This document shows, in pieces, positions 4,227 to 14,017 of a stretch of 14,429 nucleotides of DNA; position 1 is the stretch's first letter, and each line of letters starts with the position of its first letter. The stretch is taken from NCBI GenBank assembly GCA_029979405.1, contig JAPOHM010000014.1:1-14429 (forward strand), written 5' to 3'. A model generated the notes under the pieces. The model was given only the letters and a program-made list of their open reading frames with translations, ran no database searches and was not told where the DNA came from. The stretch comes from Methanobacteriota archaeon (GTDB lineage: Archaea > Thermoplasmatota > Poseidoniia > Poseidoniales > Poseidoniaceae). The position numbers and the translations under genes are program-made.

Positions 4227-4567
4227 TTGTGGATTTAGCCGGATATATCGTTTCAATACCTATTGCAATTTCTATAATTTGGATGGTTTGGAATTATGTG
4301 CAAGGTAACGTAAAGCTAGACTCAAGATTGAGAGAAGGGGATTTGGATTTGCTTAACTCTTCGAGATATAATGTTTCAGAAGCCGTTAGAGCTCCGGCTG
4401 GTAGTCGTATTGAGAATATCCAGCCCATACAGATGCAACTCGGTGGTGGAGGATTCACAAGGGTGCAACTACCTGATGGAAGAATTGGTTTGATACCGAT
4501 TAATCCAGGCGTGCAGGTGGTTAAACCAAGCCCTGGGACCATGCATAATAACCAGCCCCACCAATAA
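4223..4567 (+). CDS. Small single-pass membrane protein of unknown function
   Basis: This protein of 114 residues (112 if it starts at GTG 4229) is not recognised. It has one N-terminal membrane segment (about residues 5-25, rich in Ile/Val/Trp). A polar region follows, with LGGGGFTRVQLPDGRIGLIP around 73-92 that reads like a small beta-rich domain, and then a Pro/Asn/His-rich tail. It overlaps the stop of pyrF (ATGA), so it is translated with it. Its 3' end runs 47 bases into the convergent receiver-domain gene. The coupling to pyrF is positional only and says nothing firm about function. Coding status is supported by the Shine-Dalgarno sequence and the membrane segment. Confidence 0.7.
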   Translation: MIVDLAGYIVSIPIAISIIWMVWNYVQGNVKLDSRLREGDLDLLNSSRYNVSEAVRAPAGSRIENIQPIQMQLGGGGFTRVQLPDGRIGLIPINPGVQVVKPSPGTMHNNQPHQ

Positions 4568-5177
4568 TTGAGAATATAATCAATACTGTGAAAAGTCGTT
4601 TTGCTTTGCTTGATTTTTTCTTCTTTGGTTTTGCCACATCGCCCTCAGTAACCGGATTTATTGGTAAAGGAGGGAGTTGTCCGGGGAAAGGGAGTGGGGG
4701 CAATTCCATATCTGGCTCGGGCTCTACCACGTCATCAGCCGGATGGATTTCATCCAAGTCCTGTAATCCTGGAGCATCCGGAATGGGTCCCAAAACCATG
4801 GGCCAGATGGTGTCTATTGATGATGCAGTTATCGGTTTTTCAACCCAGCCGATTGCTCCTGCGGAATAGGTCGCATCATGAGCAAGTTGGGCTTGTCTTT
4901 TTGGCGCAGAAAACAGTATTCTGCAATCCTTGCTGTGCTCTCTCATTTCCAATGCCGCTAGGTGGCCGTCAAGTGAGGGGATATCGAGTGCAAGAACTAC
5001 CAATTCGGGGTCTATTCTAATGAATTCATCTACGGCCCTATCCCCATCTTCGCAAACGGCTACATTGAATTGTCTTTGACGAAAAATCGATGTCAAACGA
5101 TGTACAGACATTTGGTTGTTATCAACCAAAAGCACAGTTGGTGCTTCGTCGTCGTTAGTATCGGTTACTAGTGCCAT
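4521..5177 (-). CDS. Tail-anchored receiver-domain (response-regulator-like) protein with degenerate phosphosite
   Basis: This 218-residue protein has a CheY-like receiver domain at about 14-125, a proline-rich acidic linker (about 130-175, with LPPLP twice), a Lys-rich patch (KPKKKKSSKAKR) and one C-terminal membrane helix (about 195-213). It has no DNA-binding output domain. Of the usual receiver residues, Asp19 of the acidic pair is kept and its partner is Asn20. Ser90 and Lys114 are kept. Aligned from the PEL side and from the P-x-x-DG side, the phospho-acceptor position is Ala63, with an Asp at 65. It may therefore not be phosphorylated in the standard way. It follows the DUF1844 gene by 60 bases in the same direction and may work as a membrane-bound scaffold or partner-binding module. 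Function is unknown. Confidence 0.8.
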   Translation of the reverse strand: MALVTDTNDDEAPTVLLVDNNQMSVHRLTSIFRQRQFNVAVCEDGDRAVDEFIRIDPELVVLALDIPSLDGHLAALEMREHSKDCRILFSAPKRQAQLAHDATYSAGAIGWVEKPITASSIDTIWPMVLGPIPDAPGLQDLDEIHPADDVVEPEPDMELPPLPFPGQLPPLPINPVTEGDVAKPKKKKSSKAKRLFTVLIIFSIIGGAGYYAWSQGLV

Positions 5178-7549: not shown

Positions 7550-7822
7550 TTATTCTTCTTCGGCTTGTGGAGCTAGTGGTCCGCCAGCAGCCGCTATTTC
7601 ATCCCTAAAGGCGTGAAGTACTCTTGGTTCGGTAGAAGTGCGCGGGTCAATCTCTGAAATAGATTCGATTGAAATCGCTCTTCGGTTAGCTTTGTGTCTT
7701 GAACCCATGATGGAGTAACAGCGGTGTTCTGCATCCTCTGTAGATGATGCAACTAAATCGATACTGAACTTCTGTCTTTGACTTCCGAATGGGGCGATGC
7801 CGGAAACTCGGTAGGCTTGCAT
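7550..7822 (-). CDS. rpl18a: Large-subunit ribosomal protein eL20 (LX/L18a)
   Basis: This 90-residue archaeal large-subunit ribosomal protein (LX, also called L18Ae/L20e) begins MQAYRVSGIAPFG. It has the family-like core EDAEHRCYSIMGSRHKANRR and ISIESISEIDP. The usual length is about 75-90. The C-terminus carries a short Ala/Gly/Glu-rich extension. It heads a run with prefoldin alpha (50 bases downstream) and ftsY, a gene order shared by many archaea. It is divergent from the S8 protease gene. The ATG at 7822 starts directly at the first beta strand. Confidence 0.92.
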   Translation of the reverse strand: MQAYRVSGIAPFGSQRQKFSIDLVASSTEDAEHRCYSIMGSRHKANRRAISIESISEIDPRTSTEPRVLHAFRDEIAAAGGPLAPQAEEE

Positions 7823-7906
7823 AAACCGGCCGACCCATGATTGTGTCTTAAACGCGCTGGCGCGGTACTTTGAGCGTTAAGGTTGATTGGTAAGGGTGTT
7901 TTACCG
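7823..7906. promoter_or_regulatory. Divergent promoter region between eL20 and the S8 protease
   Basis: This 84-base gap must hold promoters for both directions. On the minus strand a TTTAAG element around 7847-7852 lies about 25 bases before the eL20 ATG, which suggests a leaderless or short-leader transcript. A GC-rich inverted repeat, CGCGC-TG-GCGCG (7853-7864), stands out in the AT-rich surroundings. The box assignments are weak. Confidence 0.35.
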
Positions 7907-9967
7907 ATGTTTGTGCGGGCAGTAGTTACCATTATTTTTCTACTGATGTTAGCGCCTCAGTACAGCGCTTCTAAGGCGACTGAGGTAATGGATGCTTCGC
8001 CAGAAAATACAGATTTAGTCGACCTAAATGGATCTGGGGTAATTATAGCAGTAGCTGATACTGGACTTGACCTCGACCACTCCTGCTTCAGAGAAAATCA
8101 AACTATTGTTGGCGAACCTAGTATCTCACATAGAAAGGTTGTTTTCGTAAACACTACCATAGACGAATCTGATAATCCTGCTCACCAACAATTCAAACAC
8201 GGGACTCATGTCGCTGGTTTGCTAGTGTGTGATCCGATTGAAAGTAATGATGAAATCAAATCTCTTTCACATGGGTCAAAATTATTGTTCCAGGACATTG
8301 TTAGCCAAGAGGGGTGGGTTCCGCCAAATGTAAGCCTGCTTCTGGAAGAAGCGGCTTCCCATGGAGCTATCATCAATAGCTGGTCGTGGGGAGATAATAC
8401 CATCGAATATACTGATAGGAGTAGGATGATTGACGCTTGGGCGATGGAAAATCCGTGGTCTTTGGTCTTCATTGCTCCGGGAAATAATGGAAATACTGTG
8501 ATGGAGCCTGCAAATGCGATAAATGCGGTTTCAGTTGGAGCAACTAACTCGGAAGTTAATGGATCGATGTGGGGCTCATCATCGCAAGGGCCCGACGTTA
8601 ATGGTAGGAGGGGTATTCTAATTTCGGCTCCGGGAATTAACGTCAACTCATCATTGGCAGACGGAATTAATGACTCTATGAATTCGGGAATTTACAGTAT
8701 GGGTGGAACATCTGTGGCCACTCCTTTAGCGGCTTCGTTCACAAGTTTGCTACAACAATTTGTTCAGGACAGAGAAGGTTTCACTCCTTCGGGACCGCTA
8801 CTGAGAGGTATGTTGGCAATGTCGGCCACACCGATTAATGGCATGGTTCCAGATTCTCAACAAGGTTACGGTCGGCCTTCATTGGATTCTCTCGAAAATG
8901 ACTTGTATTTACACGATTCATTCGCAGTTGAAGATTGGCAAGGCGTGGTTGCATCTAGAGGTTCTAATTTTACCTCTTTTTTGTCTAATCCATGGGACGG
9001 TAGTGAAGCGGTTGGGCCGTTTTTAGCTGAAAACCAATCGTGGGAAAAATATCTGCGCCCAACCGGAGATTCCGATTTTGAAATTGTTATGTCTTACAAC
9101 GCAAGACCCGATTACTATGCTGAGGACGACCTTCGCTTAGTTGTTACAACGCCTGATGGAAATTTTGCTTTGGATGATAATTTTACAAGCAGTGGTTACA
9201 GTAAAATGTATACTCCGTTCTTTTCAGCACCTTATAGTCACAATTCCACAAATGAGACAACAGTCATGATTAGATTGCCTGCTGATGATGTAAAGGACTA
9301 TGAATGGATAAAAGTGGAAGTATTTGCAAAATCCGTTCATAATGGGAGTAGTCAAGGAACTGTCGGCCTGGATGGAAATGCCCTCGGATTTGCGATTGCT
9401 GCGAGTGGTGGTGTTGAGTTACCCCAAAATACACCTCCGCAAATAACAATTTTAGATATTCCATCAAATGGGGAAAACGTATCTCATGAAATGGATATCA
9501 AATTAATTGTAAATGATTCTGAAGGCGATAGTGGTGTTGTAGCAATAAGGCTGGTTAACCAAAACTTTACAGTGGATCTAAGTGATTGTGCCAAAATGTT
9601 TGAAGTCGAGGTAAGTATAGAGTGTAACGTAAATTTCTCGAGGGGTTTGATAACTATGCCAATAAATCGAGAGGATTGGAGAGTAGAGGTTGTTACTGTA
9701 GACAATAATTCTTCAATTTGGACAAAAGAAATGTTATCCACTTTTTTATCTGACAATTTCACGATATGGTGGACTTCTCCATTCTCAGAAGATGGTGGTC
9801 GTGAGTTCAACAACCCCCAAACAACTGAAAGTCATGATAGTAGGGCTTTACTGTGGGGTGTTTTTGGTGTTGTTTTAGGTGTTATTGTGGCGGCCAGTGT
9901 GATGTTTAGACGATTGGAAAAAGAGATTTTTGACGATGTAAAACCGCCGTTTATTGAAGAAGAATAG
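7907..9967 (+). CDS. Membrane-anchored subtilisin-like (S8) serine protease
   Basis: This protein has 686 residues from the ATG at 7907. An in-frame TTG at 7883 would add eight; ATG is preferred because the signal peptide then starts cleanly (MFVRAVVTIIFLLMLAP). The S8 triad is Asp51 in VADTGLD, His98 in HGTHVAG and Ser269 in GGTSVATP, with the oxyanion Asn193 in APGNNG. The catalytic domain begins almost directly after the signal, so no classic I9 propeptide is visible. After about residue 325 come beta-rich regions resembling a P-domain/jelly roll and an Ig-like fold (from PQITILDIP), then one membrane helix (about 647-667) and an acidic cytoplasmic tail. It is probably an external protease held at the membrane. 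The actin-like gene follows 74 bases later on the same strand. Confidence 0.9.
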   Translation: MFVRAVVTIIFLLMLAPQYSASKATEVMDASPENTDLVDLNGSGVIIAVADTGLDLDHSCFRENQTIVGEPSISHRKVVFVNTTIDESDNPAHQQFKHGTHVAGLLVCDPIESNDEIKSLSHGSKLLFQDIVSQEGWVPPNVSLLLEEAASHGAIINSWSWGDNTIEYTDRSRMIDAWAMENPWSLVFIAPGNNGNTVMEPANAINAVSVGATNSEVNGSMWGSSSQGPDVNGRRGILISAPGINVNSSLADGINDSMNSGIYSMGGTSVATPLAASFTSLLQQFVQDREGFTPSGPLLRGMLAMSATPINGMVPDSQQGYGRPSLDSLENDLYLHDSFAVEDWQGVVASRGSNFTSFLSNPWDGSEAVGPFLAENQSWEKYLRPTGDSDFEIVMSYNARPDYYAEDDLRLVVTTPDGNFALDDNFTSSGYSKMYTPFFSAPYSHNSTNETTVMIRLPADDVKDYEWIKVEVFAKSVHNGSSQGTVGLDGNALGFAIAASGGVELPQNTPPQITILDIPSNGENVSHEMDIKLIVNDSEGDSGVVAIRLVNQNFTVDLSDCAKMFEVEVSIECNVNFSRGLITMPINREDWRVEVVTVDNNSSIWTKEMLSTFLSDNFTIWWTSPFSEDGGREFNNPQTTESHDSRALLWGVFGVVLGVIVAASVMFRRLEKEIFDDVKPPFIEEE

Positions 9968-10041: not shown

Positions 10042-11046
10042 ATGGGAGAAAGACTGTATGTAGGAATTGATTTAGGAACATACCAATCTACTATCGCTAG
10101 TAGTGCAGGTTCCTTGGACACTATTGAGACTGTTGTAGGTAGACCAAAAGACCCTGTAGCAAGAAATTTTCTGGGTAAAGATGTTTTGTTCGGCAATGAT
10201 GCTTTGAAGAATAAGCTCGCTTGTAACCTATACAGACCAATGGCTGCCGGTGTTGCTCAGGATGACGAAGCAAATCTTGCGGCGGCTAAGGCTTTCGTTA
10301 CACACTTAATCGAAACGGTTGAACCTGAAGAATACGACGAAGTTTTCGGAGTAATTTGTTCACCATCTCACGTTTCATTTACAGACAAGAGTAATCTTGT
10401 TGCAACCCTGCGTGGGCAAGTCAACGCAATCATGGTCGTAACCGAACCGTTCGCAACAGCATATGGAATCGGTGAAATTGCTGGTTCTATTGTTGTCGAC
10501 ATCGGTGCAGGAACCACTGACATTGCAAGATTGTATGGCGTATTCCCATCTGATGAGGACCAATTGACAATTAATGAAGCTGGCGACTGGATCGATTTGC
10601 AACTTATGGAACTTGTAAAGAAGAAATACACGGGCGCTCAAGTTACAAAGGACATGGTAAGAAAGTGGAAAGAAGAATTCTCATACGTTAACGGTGATGA
10701 CAGAGAACAGATGATTGAATTGTCCGTTGAAGGTAAAAAGCAGGTTGTAGATATTGGCGATTTAATCAAGGCGGCTTGTTCATTGATCATCAATAAAGTC
10801 GGAAATGCAATCAAGGCTATTGTAGCAAGCGCTGACCCAGAATACCAACCTGTTCTAAGAAACAACATCATTCTATCTGGAGGAGGTTCCCTAATCGATG
10901 GAATTGCCGACGCTATTGCAAATGAGATTGCAGACATTGGTGACGTTACCGTCACATGTGTAGAAGATCCAATCGACAAAGTCGCTCTCGGAGCTATGGC
11001 ACTCGCTCAAGATATGCCTGATGAGCAATACACCGCTATCAATTGA
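10042..11046 (+). CDS. MamK-like actin family filament protein
   Basis: This 334-residue protein belongs to the actin/MreB/MamK ATPase superfamily. It has phosphate-1 GIDLGTYQST (8-17), phosphate-2 VVDIGAGTTD (151-160) and the adenosine motif ILSGGGSLIDG (277-287). The hydrolysis Glu is expected at Glu135 (VVTEPF) and Asp153 is 18 residues later, the spacing remembered for MamK Glu143/Asp161. MamK-specific stretches also match: VVGRPKD (31-37), LYRPMAAGV (63-71), FPSDEDQLTINEAGDWID (168-185) and the C-terminal VTCVEDP...AQDMPDEQY. It resembles MamK more than MreB, crenactin or salactin. No magnetosome genes are near. Codon use is richer in GAC for Asp than in the next gene (16 of 29 against 8 of 36), which hints at high expression. 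It presumably forms ATP-dependent filaments; their role is unknown. Confidence 0.9.
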   Translation: MGERLYVGIDLGTYQSTIASSAGSLDTIETVVGRPKDPVARNFLGKDVLFGNDALKNKLACNLYRPMAAGVAQDDEANLAAAKAFVTHLIETVEPEEYDEVFGVICSPSHVSFTDKSNLVATLRGQVNAIMVVTEPFATAYGIGEIAGSIVVDIGAGTTDIARLYGVFPSDEDQLTINEAGDWIDLQLMELVKKKYTGAQVTKDMVRKWKEEFSYVNGDDREQMIELSVEGKKQVVDIGDLIKAACSLIINKVGNAIKAIVASADPEYQPVLRNNIILSGGGSLIDGIADAIANEIADIGDVTVTCVEDPIDKVALGAMALAQDMPDEQYTAIN

Positions 11047-11120: not shown

Positions 11121-12386
11121 ATGACGCTAGGAACTTCACCATCTGGAGGCATAGGACGCATCTCTGAATCAAGTGGAGATGAGCGTGCTGCGCTTGAAGG
11201 AATGCTTCGAGCATACCCTGTCGAACAACTGGTTGAGGAAGTTCTTGTGGCATGGCAGGAATTAGCAGATAGAAATGAAGATCTTGTCACTACAAAACAG
11301 AGATTGCGAGTTCTTGAATTAGACCTGGCAGAAAGAAAAGATGAGGTCGCTCCTGAAGTCGCCCAACTGAAAACTACAGAGGCTCACCTTGAAGAAGCAA
11401 ATGCAAGGATTATCCATCTTGAAAGAATGTTAGAAGATTCCAAAGGCGAATTAGCTGAAAGCATGGCTGGTTTATCCGCAGAGGAAAAAGCAAATTTGGA
11501 AAAGGAAACTTCTCAATTGCGAGAATTAACAACACAGCAAGACGAAATTATTGCTGAAATGGAAGGTCGAATGTCACAACTCGTTGAGGCTTTAGAGAGA
11601 GCCGCTGAAGCAGGCTTGACCAGTGTTACTGCGGATGAAGTTAGAGCCATGAAAGCAAAGGCGGATTCTTTGTCTGCGGATTTAGATGCTGAAAAGGCTG
11701 CAAATGATGCTTTGGAAGAAGAAAGGCAGCGTCTCAGAGATATTGCGGATAGGCTTAGGGGCTTACTGGATGCAAGAGATAAGCGACTCGGTGAATTAGA
11801 GGAGCAAATTGAACGTGTAATGCAAGGTCCGCGCTCTGTTTCGGCTGAACATGATTATCTTGTTGAGCAAATTGAAGAATTAAAGAGAAGGTTGTTAGAA
11901 CGTAATCGTGAATATGAATCACTAAGAAGAAGAGAAAGGCGATTACATAACGATGTATTCGAGAGAGATGAAAGAATCCAACAAATGTCGTTAACTATTT
12001 CAGACCTTGAAGCGGCACTAACTGACAGAACTTCTGAAATCAGAGAATTGGAATCGCAAAGAGATTCTGCAATGCATGAATTAGATGGAGCAAAACGGTC
12101 TGAAAGAACGAGAGAGGTTGTTGGACAAGCGTTTGCTGACTCCCTTTCACTGGTTAGAACTCATGATGAAAGAGAATTACGTAAAGAAGTATACGCTAAT
12201 GCTCCGAATGTTGAAAGAAAGATTTCCTCACCGAATGCTGATGATATGAAAACCTTGGCTGACGGTGGAACCGTAGATTTGGATAAGGCGTTAGAAGTCA
12301 TCGAACAAGGAATGGATATTGACGTCGACAGGCCTGCTGCTCCAGGTGGAAGCGGCGATCCTGTTCTTTACGAAGATGAGGATTGA
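11121..12386 (+). CDS. Long coiled-coil protein, candidate partner of the MamK-like actin
   Basis: This 421-residue protein was not recognised as a named family. Residues about 20-48 (ALEGMLRAYPVEQLVEEVLVA) look like a small helical head. From about 45 to 335 it is a nearly continuous coiled coil rich in Glu, Arg, Leu and Ala, with a likely break near AGLTSVTADE (164-173) and another near GPRSVSAEHD (236-245). The last 85 residues are less helical and end in an acidic PVLYEDED. There is no signal peptide and no membrane helix, so it is cytoplasmic. It lies 74 bases after the actin gene on the same strand, with TAGGT before the ATG. It may be a filament bundler, crosslinker or anchor by analogy with coiled-coil partners of other filaments, which is inference. 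The 3' end overlaps the convergent GGGP synthase gene by 19 bases. Confidence 0.85.
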   Translation: MTLGTSPSGGIGRISESSGDERAALEGMLRAYPVEQLVEEVLVAWQELADRNEDLVTTKQRLRVLELDLAERKDEVAPEVAQLKTTEAHLEEANARIIHLERMLEDSKGELAESMAGLSAEEKANLEKETSQLRELTTQQDEIIAEMEGRMSQLVEALERAAEAGLTSVTADEVRAMKAKADSLSADLDAEKAANDALEEERQRLRDIADRLRGLLDARDKRLGELEEQIERVMQGPRSVSAEHDYLVEQIEELKRRLLERNREYESLRRRERRLHNDVFERDERIQQMSLTISDLEAALTDRTSEIRELESQRDSAMHELDGAKRSERTREVVGQAFADSLSLVRTHDERELRKEVYANAPNVERKISSPNADDMKTLADGGTVDLDKALEVIEQGMDIDVDRPAAPGGSGDPVLYEDED

Positions 12387-13186
12387 ATTCCTTCAACCAC
12401 TTCGGTTATTCTCTGATGGAGTTCTTGTAGATTGTCGGCGTCTTCCGTTAAAGTGCCAGTTACAACCCAATTTGCACCTGAATTAGCTGCCAAAGTTGCT
12501 TGTTCTTTGGTTCGTATTCCGCCTCCTACAAACAAACATAATTCCTCAACCTCTCTTGCGGCTTCTATACATTCTTTGGACACTTGGGTATCTGAACCGC
12601 TTCCTGCTTCTAAATACAATATTTTGAACCCGTACATTTTTGCTGTAATAGCATATGATTTTACTAGGCCTGTCTCATCTTTTGTTATCAAATCGGCCTC
12701 GCCTACTTCTCCTACTTTACCACCTGGAGAAAATACGAGATAGCCGGTTGGTATTGCTTCAACACCAAATTTGTCTAGATGTGGGGCTCCCTTAAGTTGC
12801 TCTTCGATAAGGAACCGTCTAGTTCTTGAATTCATTAACATCATGAAAGTTATTCCGTCTGCCGCTGGAGATAATGCATGGGCCCCTCCTGGAAAGAGAA
12901 CAACGGGGATTTTCCATTTATCCTCATCTGATGTTGGGTCTTGGCTTGCAGCGAAAATTTGGAGTTCGAGTGCTTCTTGAATCAATTTACATGTCTCATG
13001 AACTACTTCGTTTGGGGTGTCTGTAGACCCTCCTACAAAGATCATGTTAGATCCTGCTTCTATTGCAGTAATTGCCCGTTTTGTTGCTATTTCTGCGGAT
13101 TGTTTTCCCGGGTCGATAAGGGTTACATGCCTACAACCTTGGGATGTGTCTTGAATGTAATTCAGCAATCCAAAGTCTGGTAGCAT
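12368..13186 (-). CDS. Geranylgeranylglyceryl phosphate synthase (GGGPS)
   Basis: GGGPS joins geranylgeranyl diphosphate to sn-glycerol-1-phosphate, the first committed step of archaeal ether lipids. The 272-residue TIM-barrel protein shows HVTLIDPGK (20-28), FVGGSTD (50-56), LFPGG...SPAADGITFMMLMNS (97-120), AIPTGYLVFSPGGKVGEVG (144-162), MYGFKILYLEAGSG (184-197) and LFVGGGIRT (218-226). All are conserved in the family for G1P and prenyl-diphosphate binding. Length and motifs fit the larger (group II-like) archaeal enzymes. It begins one base after the stop of the reductase-like gene, with AGGAA upstream, so it is the third gene of the ferredoxin/reductase operon. Confidence 0.95.
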   Translation of the reverse strand: MLPDFGLLNYIQDTSQGCRHVTLIDPGKQSAEIATKRAITAIEAGSNMIFVGGSTDTPNEVVHETCKLIQEALELQIFAASQDPTSDEDKWKIPVVLFPGGAHALSPAADGITFMMLMNSRTRRFLIEEQLKGAPHLDKFGVEAIPTGYLVFSPGGKVGEVGEADLITKDETGLVKSYAITAKMYGFKILYLEAGSGSDTQVSKECIEAAREVEELCLFVGGGIRTKEQATLAANSGANWVVTGTLTEDADNLQELHQRITEVVEGIQSSSS

Positions 13187-13187
13187 A

Positions 13188-13817
13188 TTAGTTTCCTTCC
13201 TGTAGGGATTGAATTGTTTTTTTGGCTATCATTACTCCTTCTAATAATGAATTGTCGGCCCAAATATCATTTGCGTTTATCGGATGTTCCCCTTGGATTA
13301 TTTCGAGCCATCCTTGAGGGGGGTTTGGTAGTTTTCCTCTTATCCAACATTCAATTAAACCATCAGAGTGTTCAAAACAGAATTTATCATCCTCTAATGT
13401 ATTCAATTCAAAAACGTCTGGTATGTTGTTCTCTATTGTTATACCACCATTCCAAGTGATTAGTGATTCATCTATTGGGTTTGTTGATGGCCATCCTGGA
13501 GCTGGCGTTTTACCACCTCGACAATCTATTGCGTCTGGAGGTGCCTCGGATTTCAGAATTATTTCTCCACCTAAATCAATCACCCTTTCCGCATATTTTT
13601 TCTCTAGCCATTCCCTTCGTAGGCACCATCCAAAATCATTCGATTTAGCATTACAAATTAAAATTAAATTTGAATCTAAATGTTTTATTATTCCTGGAGA
13701 CCTTATTGGATTACCAATTTCTTGTCTAGTTTCATAGACCATTACGTTGTATCCTTCTTCAAGAAGAGTTATGGCGCAATTAAGTCCCCTTAATCCACCG
13801 CCTGCTATCGATATCAA
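13188..13817 (-). CDS. Short geranylgeranyl-reductase-like flavoprotein
   Basis: This 209-residue protein (from TTG 13817) has an FAD-binding Rossmann start: GGGLRG at 6-11 with acidic Glu29 ending the second strand. IGNPIRSPG (34-42) then resembles the IGxPxRC segment of archaeal geranylgeranyl reductases, and LRREWLEKKYAERVIDLGG fits their next helix. Known reductases are about 390-450 residues, so much of the substrate-binding domain is missing. The reading frame looks intact, with no obvious frameshift. ATGs at 13868 and 13856 are in frame but lie inside the ferredoxin gene; TTG 13817 overlaps the ferredoxin TGA and has GAGGATG seven bases upstream. It may reduce lipid double bonds with ferredoxin electrons, or be a derived relative with another role. 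Confidence 0.7.
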   Translation of the reverse strand: MISIAGGGLRGLNCAITLLEEGYNVMVYETRQEIGNPIRSPGIIKHLDSNLILICNAKSNDFGWCLRREWLEKKYAERVIDLGGEIILKSEAPPDAIDCRGGKTPAPGWPSTNPIDESLITWNGGITIENNIPDVFELNTLEDDKFCFEHSDGLIECWIRGKLPNPPQGWLEIIQGEHPINANDIWADNSLLEGVMIAKKTIQSLQEGN

Positions 13818-14017
13818 TTTTGCACATCCTCTATTGATAGTGCAAATACTGGACATGAAGGAATACAATGATTACACAATGTACAATCATCTTGGGTTAC
13901 AACCGCTAATCTATCAATAAGATCCAAGGCGTTTGTAGGGCAAAGTCCAATACAAGCTCCACACCCATAACACAATTTTTCATCAACCACGAATAGTTGA
14001 GTCTGATGTTGTGCCAT
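13814..14017 (-). CDS. 2[4Fe-4S] ferredoxin
   Basis: This small 67-residue electron carrier has two full cluster motifs: CYGCGACIGLCP (Cys16, 19, 22, 26) and CTLCNHCIPSCP (Cys45, 48, 51, 55). Each is C-x2-C-x2-C-x3-C-P, so two [4Fe-4S] clusters are expected. It has no signal and no membrane segment. It is the first gene of an operon with the reductase-like flavoprotein (overlapping stop/start) and GGGP synthase. In Methanosarcina, geranylgeranyl reductase needs a ferredoxin as electron donor, which fits a dedicated donor role here. That role is inference from context. Confidence 0.93.
   Translation of the reverse strand: MAQHQTQLFVVDEKLCYGCGACIGLCPTNALDLIDRLAVVTQDDCTLCNHCIPSCPVFALSIEDVQN
13825..13831 (-). 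promoter_or_regulatory. Shine-Dalgarno GAGGATG supporting a TTG start
   Basis: GAGGATG on the minus strand lies seven bases before TTG 13817. That TTG overlaps the TGA of the ferredoxin gene (13814-13816). This favours the shorter reductase-like protein over in-frame ATGs upstream. Confidence 0.6.

Follow-up and report, generated by a model that had tools for sequence, protein, structure and literature searches.

A MamK-like actin of Poseidoniales archaea, its paralogue and their conserved gene neighbours

MamK is the filament that lines up magnetosomes in magnetotactic bacteria, and crenactin, an actin of archaea, is placed near eukaryotic actin. This study concerns a gene for a MamK-like actin, referred to here as paralogue A, located at positions 10042–11046 of a 14,429-nucleotide stretch of DNA (the window; contig JAPOHM010000014.1, assembly GCA_029979405.1) from an archaeon of the Poseidoniaceae. 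The magnetosomes of Desulfovibrio magneticus RS-1 are placed jointly by MamK, another actin called Mad28 and coiled-coil Mad proteins (PMC12748827), a precedent for the pairing of actins with coiled-coil proteins that PMC13170167 also supplies. MamK relatives exist outside magnetotaxis, as illustrated by BeeR, the hallmark of which is a disordered N-terminal extension of 30–50 amino acids (PMC11929497). MamK is the nearest family reported for salactin (PMC10746226), and crenactin with its arcadins provides an example of an archaeal actin with a regulating partner (PMC5173319). Yutin and colleagues (2009) described the MamK and ParM branches as mainly bacterial, with some archaeal proteins (PMC2651865). 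The findings presented here go beyond the MamK-like actin claimed in an earlier note on this DNA, in that Poseidoniales have a pair of such actins, each with a constant neighbour of its own; paralogue A probably belongs to a two-actin cytoplasmic cytoskeleton of the MamK type with dedicated adaptors.

Computation gives paralogue A a MamK-type sequence, a MamK-type predicted fold and intact ATP-site residues. Among the NCBIfam models, MamK ranked first (333 bits, E = 1.8e-99), ahead of BeeR, MreB and salactin, and the best relative in the PDB was also MamK (5jyg, 213 bits, E = 5.9e-62), followed by BeeR (8r2n, 134 bits) and MreB (54 bits). The protein is best described as ‘MamK-like’ rather than ‘MamK’, because 333 bits lies below the curated NCBI cut-off of 400 bits for this model (NF040964). 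The best Poseidoniales copy seen reached 377.9 bits, and only the actin of one other genome, G086, scored above the cut-off (435.5 bits). The other NCBIfam cut-offs were not reached either, for BeeR (NF053558, 210.7 vs 530 bits), MreB (PRK13927, 83.3 vs 293 bits; TIGR00904, 71.8 vs 365.75 bits) or salactin (NF053533, 33.3 vs 400 bits), and the last of these scores rules out a salactin identity. Among the Pfam families, which are broader than the NCBIfam models, the protein passes MreB_Mbl at 85.1 (cut-off 27) and Actin at 47.6 (cut-off 27), under the MreB_Mbl score, and just passes Salactin at 28.0 (cut-off 27.1). In the protein database, 1143 of 4849 scored candidates matched paralogue A at E ≤ 0.001, and the resemblance goes far beyond chance.

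The gene occupies exactly the span given above on the forward strand, as a single open frame with an ATG start, and its translation contains the motifs VVGRPKD, LYRPMAAGV and VTCVEDP...MPDEQY that had been attributed to MamK in the earlier note. The claimed spacing of 18 residues between Glu135 and Asp153 also holds; these active-site residues align with the EPF and DIGAGT motifs of MamK, and the protein combines the MamK fold with its ATPase residues. D10, G12, T13, E135, D153, T158 and D160 are invariant across the 135 aligned rows of paralogue A (many of which are near-copies) and across the 38 rows of a second copy type, paralogue B. The predicted fold superimposes on the MamK filament subunit to 1.3 Å over 324 amino acids (TM 0.94), the first actin strand beginning at residue 4. 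The median dN/dS was 0.021, calculated from the 49 of 136 pairs with a dS of 0.05–1.5, and paralogue A is thus under strong purifying selection.

Of the 145 genomes sampled from the G001 family, 142 matched the MamK model (E ≤ 1e-30); a count of the result rows gives 25 genomes with a single match and 117 with at least two. One of the three genomes with no actin match (G305) retains a piece of the coiled-coil gene described below, indicating that incomplete assemblies account for some of the missing actins. The phylum-wide sample gave matches in 51 of 292 genomes. In the family of G114, which shares an order with G001 and is probably Thalassarchaeaceae, 17 of 60 genomes matched, 14 of them two or more times. 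Actin-negative genomes in the G114 family are smaller than the others (medians of rounded sizes 1.4 vs 1.7 Mb, Mann-Whitney p = 3.8e-7, for genomes that are phylogenetically non-independent), and actin loss alongside genome reduction is possible, although G418, an actin-negative genome of 2.2 Mb, contradicts this trend.

Paralogue B, 44–46% identical to A where full length, was present in 14 of 16 genomes searched. Three matches were obtained in five of these 16: G003, G004 and G005 carry A twice, on different contigs and with near-equal scores, and are probably mixed bins, G300 has an extra partial B, and in G001 B is split into two pieces. The B gene of chromosome CM001443.1 appears in two pieces (L142:9001–9992), possibly owing to an assembly error. 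A tree of 68 rows, from database proteins thinned by identity and limited to 320–420 amino acids, crenactin not being among the rows, split off MreB at 100/100 and recovered clade A (100/100), clade B (100/100) and the two together (A+B, 100/99). The protein groups with MamK-family proteins, apart from MreB, the root within the family being open; a place firmly inside MreB or a known archaeal actin group, named in the earlier note as the contrary outcome, did not appear. The duplication is older than the split between the families, because clades A and B each hold sequences from two families. MreB forms a very long branch, and BeeR was drawn as a long branch in this first tree, a warning of long branches meeting MreB, for which reason the tree was rebuilt without BeeR (67 rows); A and B remained clades at 100/100, and the 16 rows that the AMB-1 MamK search contributed no longer lay on one side of a branch. 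A single origin of A+B with the Thermoplasmatota actin of the G086 type, a grouping picked after the first tree, was rejected (p = 0.011).

The gene downstream of A encodes a coiled-coil protein (Table 1). For the neighbours of A, the best 80 of 177 confirmed loci were compared, each count using only loci with enough flanking sequence. Reading in the same direction as A, the coil gene follows it in every one of the 71 Poseidoniaceae loci that extend far enough and, in the other family, in 10 of 10 loci; it was seen in 79 of the 80 loci, with a median identity of 71%. The gap between the two genes is less than 250 bases in 77 of these 79 loci and 418 bases in L056, a partial match; for nine loci of the other family the matched parts are 135–164 bases apart, and for L172 they are 631 bases apart. 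Across the order, the coil was found in 127 of 243 genomes (E ≤ 1e-30). Pfam gave no family above its cut-off for this protein, and NCBIfam gave only coiled-coil matches under theirs, with SMC at the top. The AlphaFold2 model (mean pLDDT 77.6, pTM 0.35, the overall arrangement being unreliable) contains long helices at residues 34–116, 120–164, 169–234 and 241–360 and a low-confidence C-terminal tail, and the heptad signal peaks in windows starting at residues 197–281. Its median dN/dS was 0.015, from three usable pairs of 136, too few to lean on. Paralogue B has a constant neighbour of its own: in 11 of the 11 B loci, the gene immediately before it, read in the same direction, encodes a protein of about 340 amino acids with cysteine pairs near both ends, which Pfam matched only to a zinc ribbon, under the cut-off. 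The other scanned neighbours of B, from clusters retained if present in at least four of 12 loci, are housekeeping genes, including an isoprenoid-type polyprenyl synthase fused to NUDIX, together with an amino-acid-kinase-family protein. No hydrophobic segment resembling a transmembrane (TM) segment was found in paralogue A, the coil protein or the zinc-ribbon protein.

Both partners co-occur with the actins. Among the 60 genomes of the G114 family, 18 matched the coil at E ≤ 1e-10, 15 of them strongly (E < 1e-60). The strong matches came from 14 of the 14 genomes with at least two actin matches, none of the three with a single match (G404, G410 and G421) and one of the 43 with none, the last being a partial match in G399. 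The zinc-ribbon protein was found in 17 of 17 actin-positive genomes and in one actin-negative genome of 43 (G418), in which the gene stops 356 bases from the contig end. In Fisher tests, the association of the coil with the actins had p = 5.5e-10 and that of the zinc-ribbon protein p = 4.6e-14. The adjacency kept across two families is a better argument than this co-occurrence.

These results suggest the following arrangement, the polymerisation, binding and cargo of which we infer. Given ATP, paralogue A and paralogue B would each assemble into polar, MamK-type filaments in the cytoplasm. The coiled-coil protein may form a long rod that attaches to filament A, either to cross-link it or to tether it to cargo, by analogy with the coiled-coil partners of MamK, and the zinc-ribbon protein may be a comparable adaptor for B. 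The filaments would serve to place a cargo inside the cell or to define cell polarity, with chromosome or membrane-complex positioning, rather than motility, as a first guess at the cargo. The reading in the earlier note, a MamK-like actin in an archaeal context that presumably organises something other than magnetosomes, is supported: MreB stands apart in the tree, the contig is archaeal and no magnetosome gene was found in the scanned neighbours.

Several observations weigh against the proposed MamK-type cytoskeleton. The coil gene of L012 is 3.9 kb away from A, and the 74 bases that separate the two genes in the window are no proof of an operon. Weak partial coil matches (E from 1e-10 to 1e-12), two of them with internal stops, came from three genomes that show no actin match (G129, G208 and G408). 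In a tree of FtsY with 35 rows, this protein having been obtained from 24 of 30 genomes, the actin-positive genomes and the Poseidoniaceae rows form one group (95/96) with two actin-negative genomes, G399 and G073; the other 14 actin-negative genomes fall outside it, and the presence of the actins requires at least three changes. The co-occurrence thus mostly traces to roughly one gain or loss, and its p-values overstate the independent evidence for this reason. The MamK family also offers more than one place for A+B and for the root: A+B stood apart from the rows of the AMB-1 MamK search in the 68-row tree, but the approximately unbiased (AU) test does not reject a grouping of the two (p = 0.224), and so fails to prove them separate, and neither does it reject a position of A+B beside the root of MreB (p = 0.305).

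A further point of this kind comes from G086, which belongs to the same phylum, measures 5 Mb and is the lone genome of its order. Its actin is followed directly by a 618-amino-acid open reading frame with a charged, coil-like sequence (L143:8905–12056), which gave no match to the coil of A (best E 0.23); homology between the two downstream coils was therefore rejected. The actin-then-coil layout is alike at the two loci, with no detectable similarity between the coils. The G086 actin also neighbours genes for a TsaD/Kae1-family protein and a diphthamide synthase of Pfam PF01902, a family typical of archaea and eukaryotes. A MamK-family protein filed as ‘[Eubacterium] cellulosolvens’ (P0134) is 76% identical to this actin and may carry the wrong organism label, while P0146, also closely related, is filed under Thermoplasmata.

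The other genes around A are archaeal (Table 1). All 80 loci compared are titled as archaeal (Poseidoniaceae, Poseidoniales, Poseidonia, Euryarchaeota or euryarchaeote); they are up to 93% identical and include the 2.06-Mb chromosome record CM001443.1 (L048). The ribosomal protein L18a and geranylgeranylglyceryl phosphate synthase (GGGPS) genes are accompanied in the window by those for prefoldin alpha and FtsY, in agreement with the earlier description of an archaeal contig. That description had also listed the neighbours as housekeeping and lipid genes rather than mam genes, and no magnetosome gene was present among the window genes scanned or among 18 proteins from four B loci. The sole genome-wide marker, magnetochrome (PF18509), was matched in none of 145 genomes, its controls giving no match either. 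A subtilase gene lies upstream of A in 72 of 72 Poseidoniaceae loci with room and nine of nine in the other family; the protein diverges fast (median identity 38%) despite this constant place, and co-transcription with the actin is possible. The product of positions 4521–5177 on the reverse strand, near A in 59 loci, consists of a receiver domain (PF00072), a linker and a C-terminal hydrophobic segment, and is possibly a membrane-tethered response regulator with no recognised output domain. Isoprenoid-lipid genes adjoin both actins, GGGPS by A (12368–13868) and the NUDIX-polyprenyl synthase fusion with the kinase-family gene by B (L150:1974–4610); a membrane link is conceivable from these neighbours.

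Table 1. Paralogue A and neighbouring features of the window (positions counted from its first nucleotide).
Feature	Positions	Strand	Remarks
MamK-like actin, paralogue A	10042..11046	+	334 aa; actin fold complete, nucleotide-site residues intact
Coiled-coil partner of A	11121..12386	+	421 aa; no TM segment; downstream of A
S8 subtilase	7883..9967	+	Pfam PF00082; N- and C-terminal hydrophobic segments; upstream neighbour
Ribosomal protein L18a	7553..7822	-	archaeal flank; seen in 67/68 loci with room
Geranylgeranylglyceryl phosphate synthase (GGGPS)	12368..13186	-	archaeal lipid gene, flank; seen in 61/63 loci with room

The alternative that survives best, although unlikely, is that paralogue A is a shape or chromosome protein acting like MreB or salactin, which merely scores well on the MamK model, its neighbours being membrane or DNA partners. 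The reported proximity of salactin to MamK (PMC10746226) and the survival of the MreB-root placement in the AU test are consistent with it, as is the label ‘rod shape-determining protein’ carried by Poseidoniaceae members of the family in public records. However, the NCBIfam and fold scores favour MamK and BeeR, no mreC, mreD or rodZ gene was found among the scanned neighbours of A or B, and the coil and zinc-ribbon partners have no TM-like segments. A filament that positions or anchors the archaellum, or an adhesion apparatus, at the cell surface is improbable. This link was put to the test because the archaellum operon is reported from all Poseidoniaceae genera and half of the Thalassarchaeaceae genera (PMC6461757). 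With archaellin (PF01917) as the sole marker, in incomplete genomes, 22 of 60 genomes were positive, eight from the 17 that carry the actins and 14 from the 43 with no actin match (Fisher p = 0.38); the actins of G114, G205 and G275 (2.0–2.1 Mb) occur with no archaellin match, and no archaellum gene was found among the scanned neighbours of A or B. The archaellum link is therefore not supported, and the role in a motility structure suggested in the earlier note gains nothing from these counts. That the actin is a recent bacterial import or a binning artefact can be largely dismissed as highly improbable: its named relatives outside archaea are bacterial, but the matching genomes make up almost the whole of their family, with the chromosome record CM001443.1 among them, the genes on either side are conserved archaeal ones, and both paralogues predate the split of the two families, an ancient transfer from bacteria before that split being possible.

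The MamK-type cytoskeleton with dedicated adaptors thus remains the favoured explanation. A more specific version, in which the two actins, the coil rod and the zinc-ribbon adaptor form a single positioning machine that jointly places an intracellular cargo or compartment, independently of magnetosomes, is put forward tentatively and seems rather unlikely; if true, it would be a MamK-type system in another domain of life. Poseidoniales are one of the commonest groups of ocean archaea and are abundant at the surface. Among the matches listed for the open-access literature, no report of MamK-like actins in Poseidoniales was found in titles, abstract starts or passages, and none of the titles or abstract starts listed for this lineage with actin, cytoskeleton or MreB describes a Poseidoniales cytoskeleton. 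A conserved MamK-like pair would make organelle alignment one specialised use of a broader filament family, and the two actins and two partner genes constitute a small, defined set open to expression and testing.

Among the known systems, crenactin resembles paralogue A in being an archaeal actin with a partner, a likeness taken from its published description. Salactin, from Haloarchaea, is also a euryarchaeal actin with MamK reported as its nearest family, but paralogue A obtains only 33 of 400 bits on its model, and salactin lies outside the rows of the tree. BeeR, from Verrucomicrobiota (PDB 8r2n), has its hallmark N-terminal extension of 30–50 amino acids (PMC11929497), which is absent from paralogue A. 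The MamK and Mad28 system of RS-1, which places its cargo by means of two actins and coiled-coil proteins, offers a parallel for the arrangement proposed here; in RS-1, the cargo is the magnetosome, and Mad28 belongs to a clade of its own, separate from that of MamK (PMC10653835), in contrast to the sister relationship of A and B. MamK itself (PDB 5ljv and 5jyg; NF040964) is 33% identical to paralogue A in a structural alignment and aligns with it in sequence collinearly over the full length, with the filament-subunit fit given above and identical ATP-site residues. Unlike MamK, paralogue A scores below the 400-bit cut-off and neither it nor B has a magnetosome gene among the neighbours scanned; it has an archaeal host and is one of two paralogues, each with its own neighbour.
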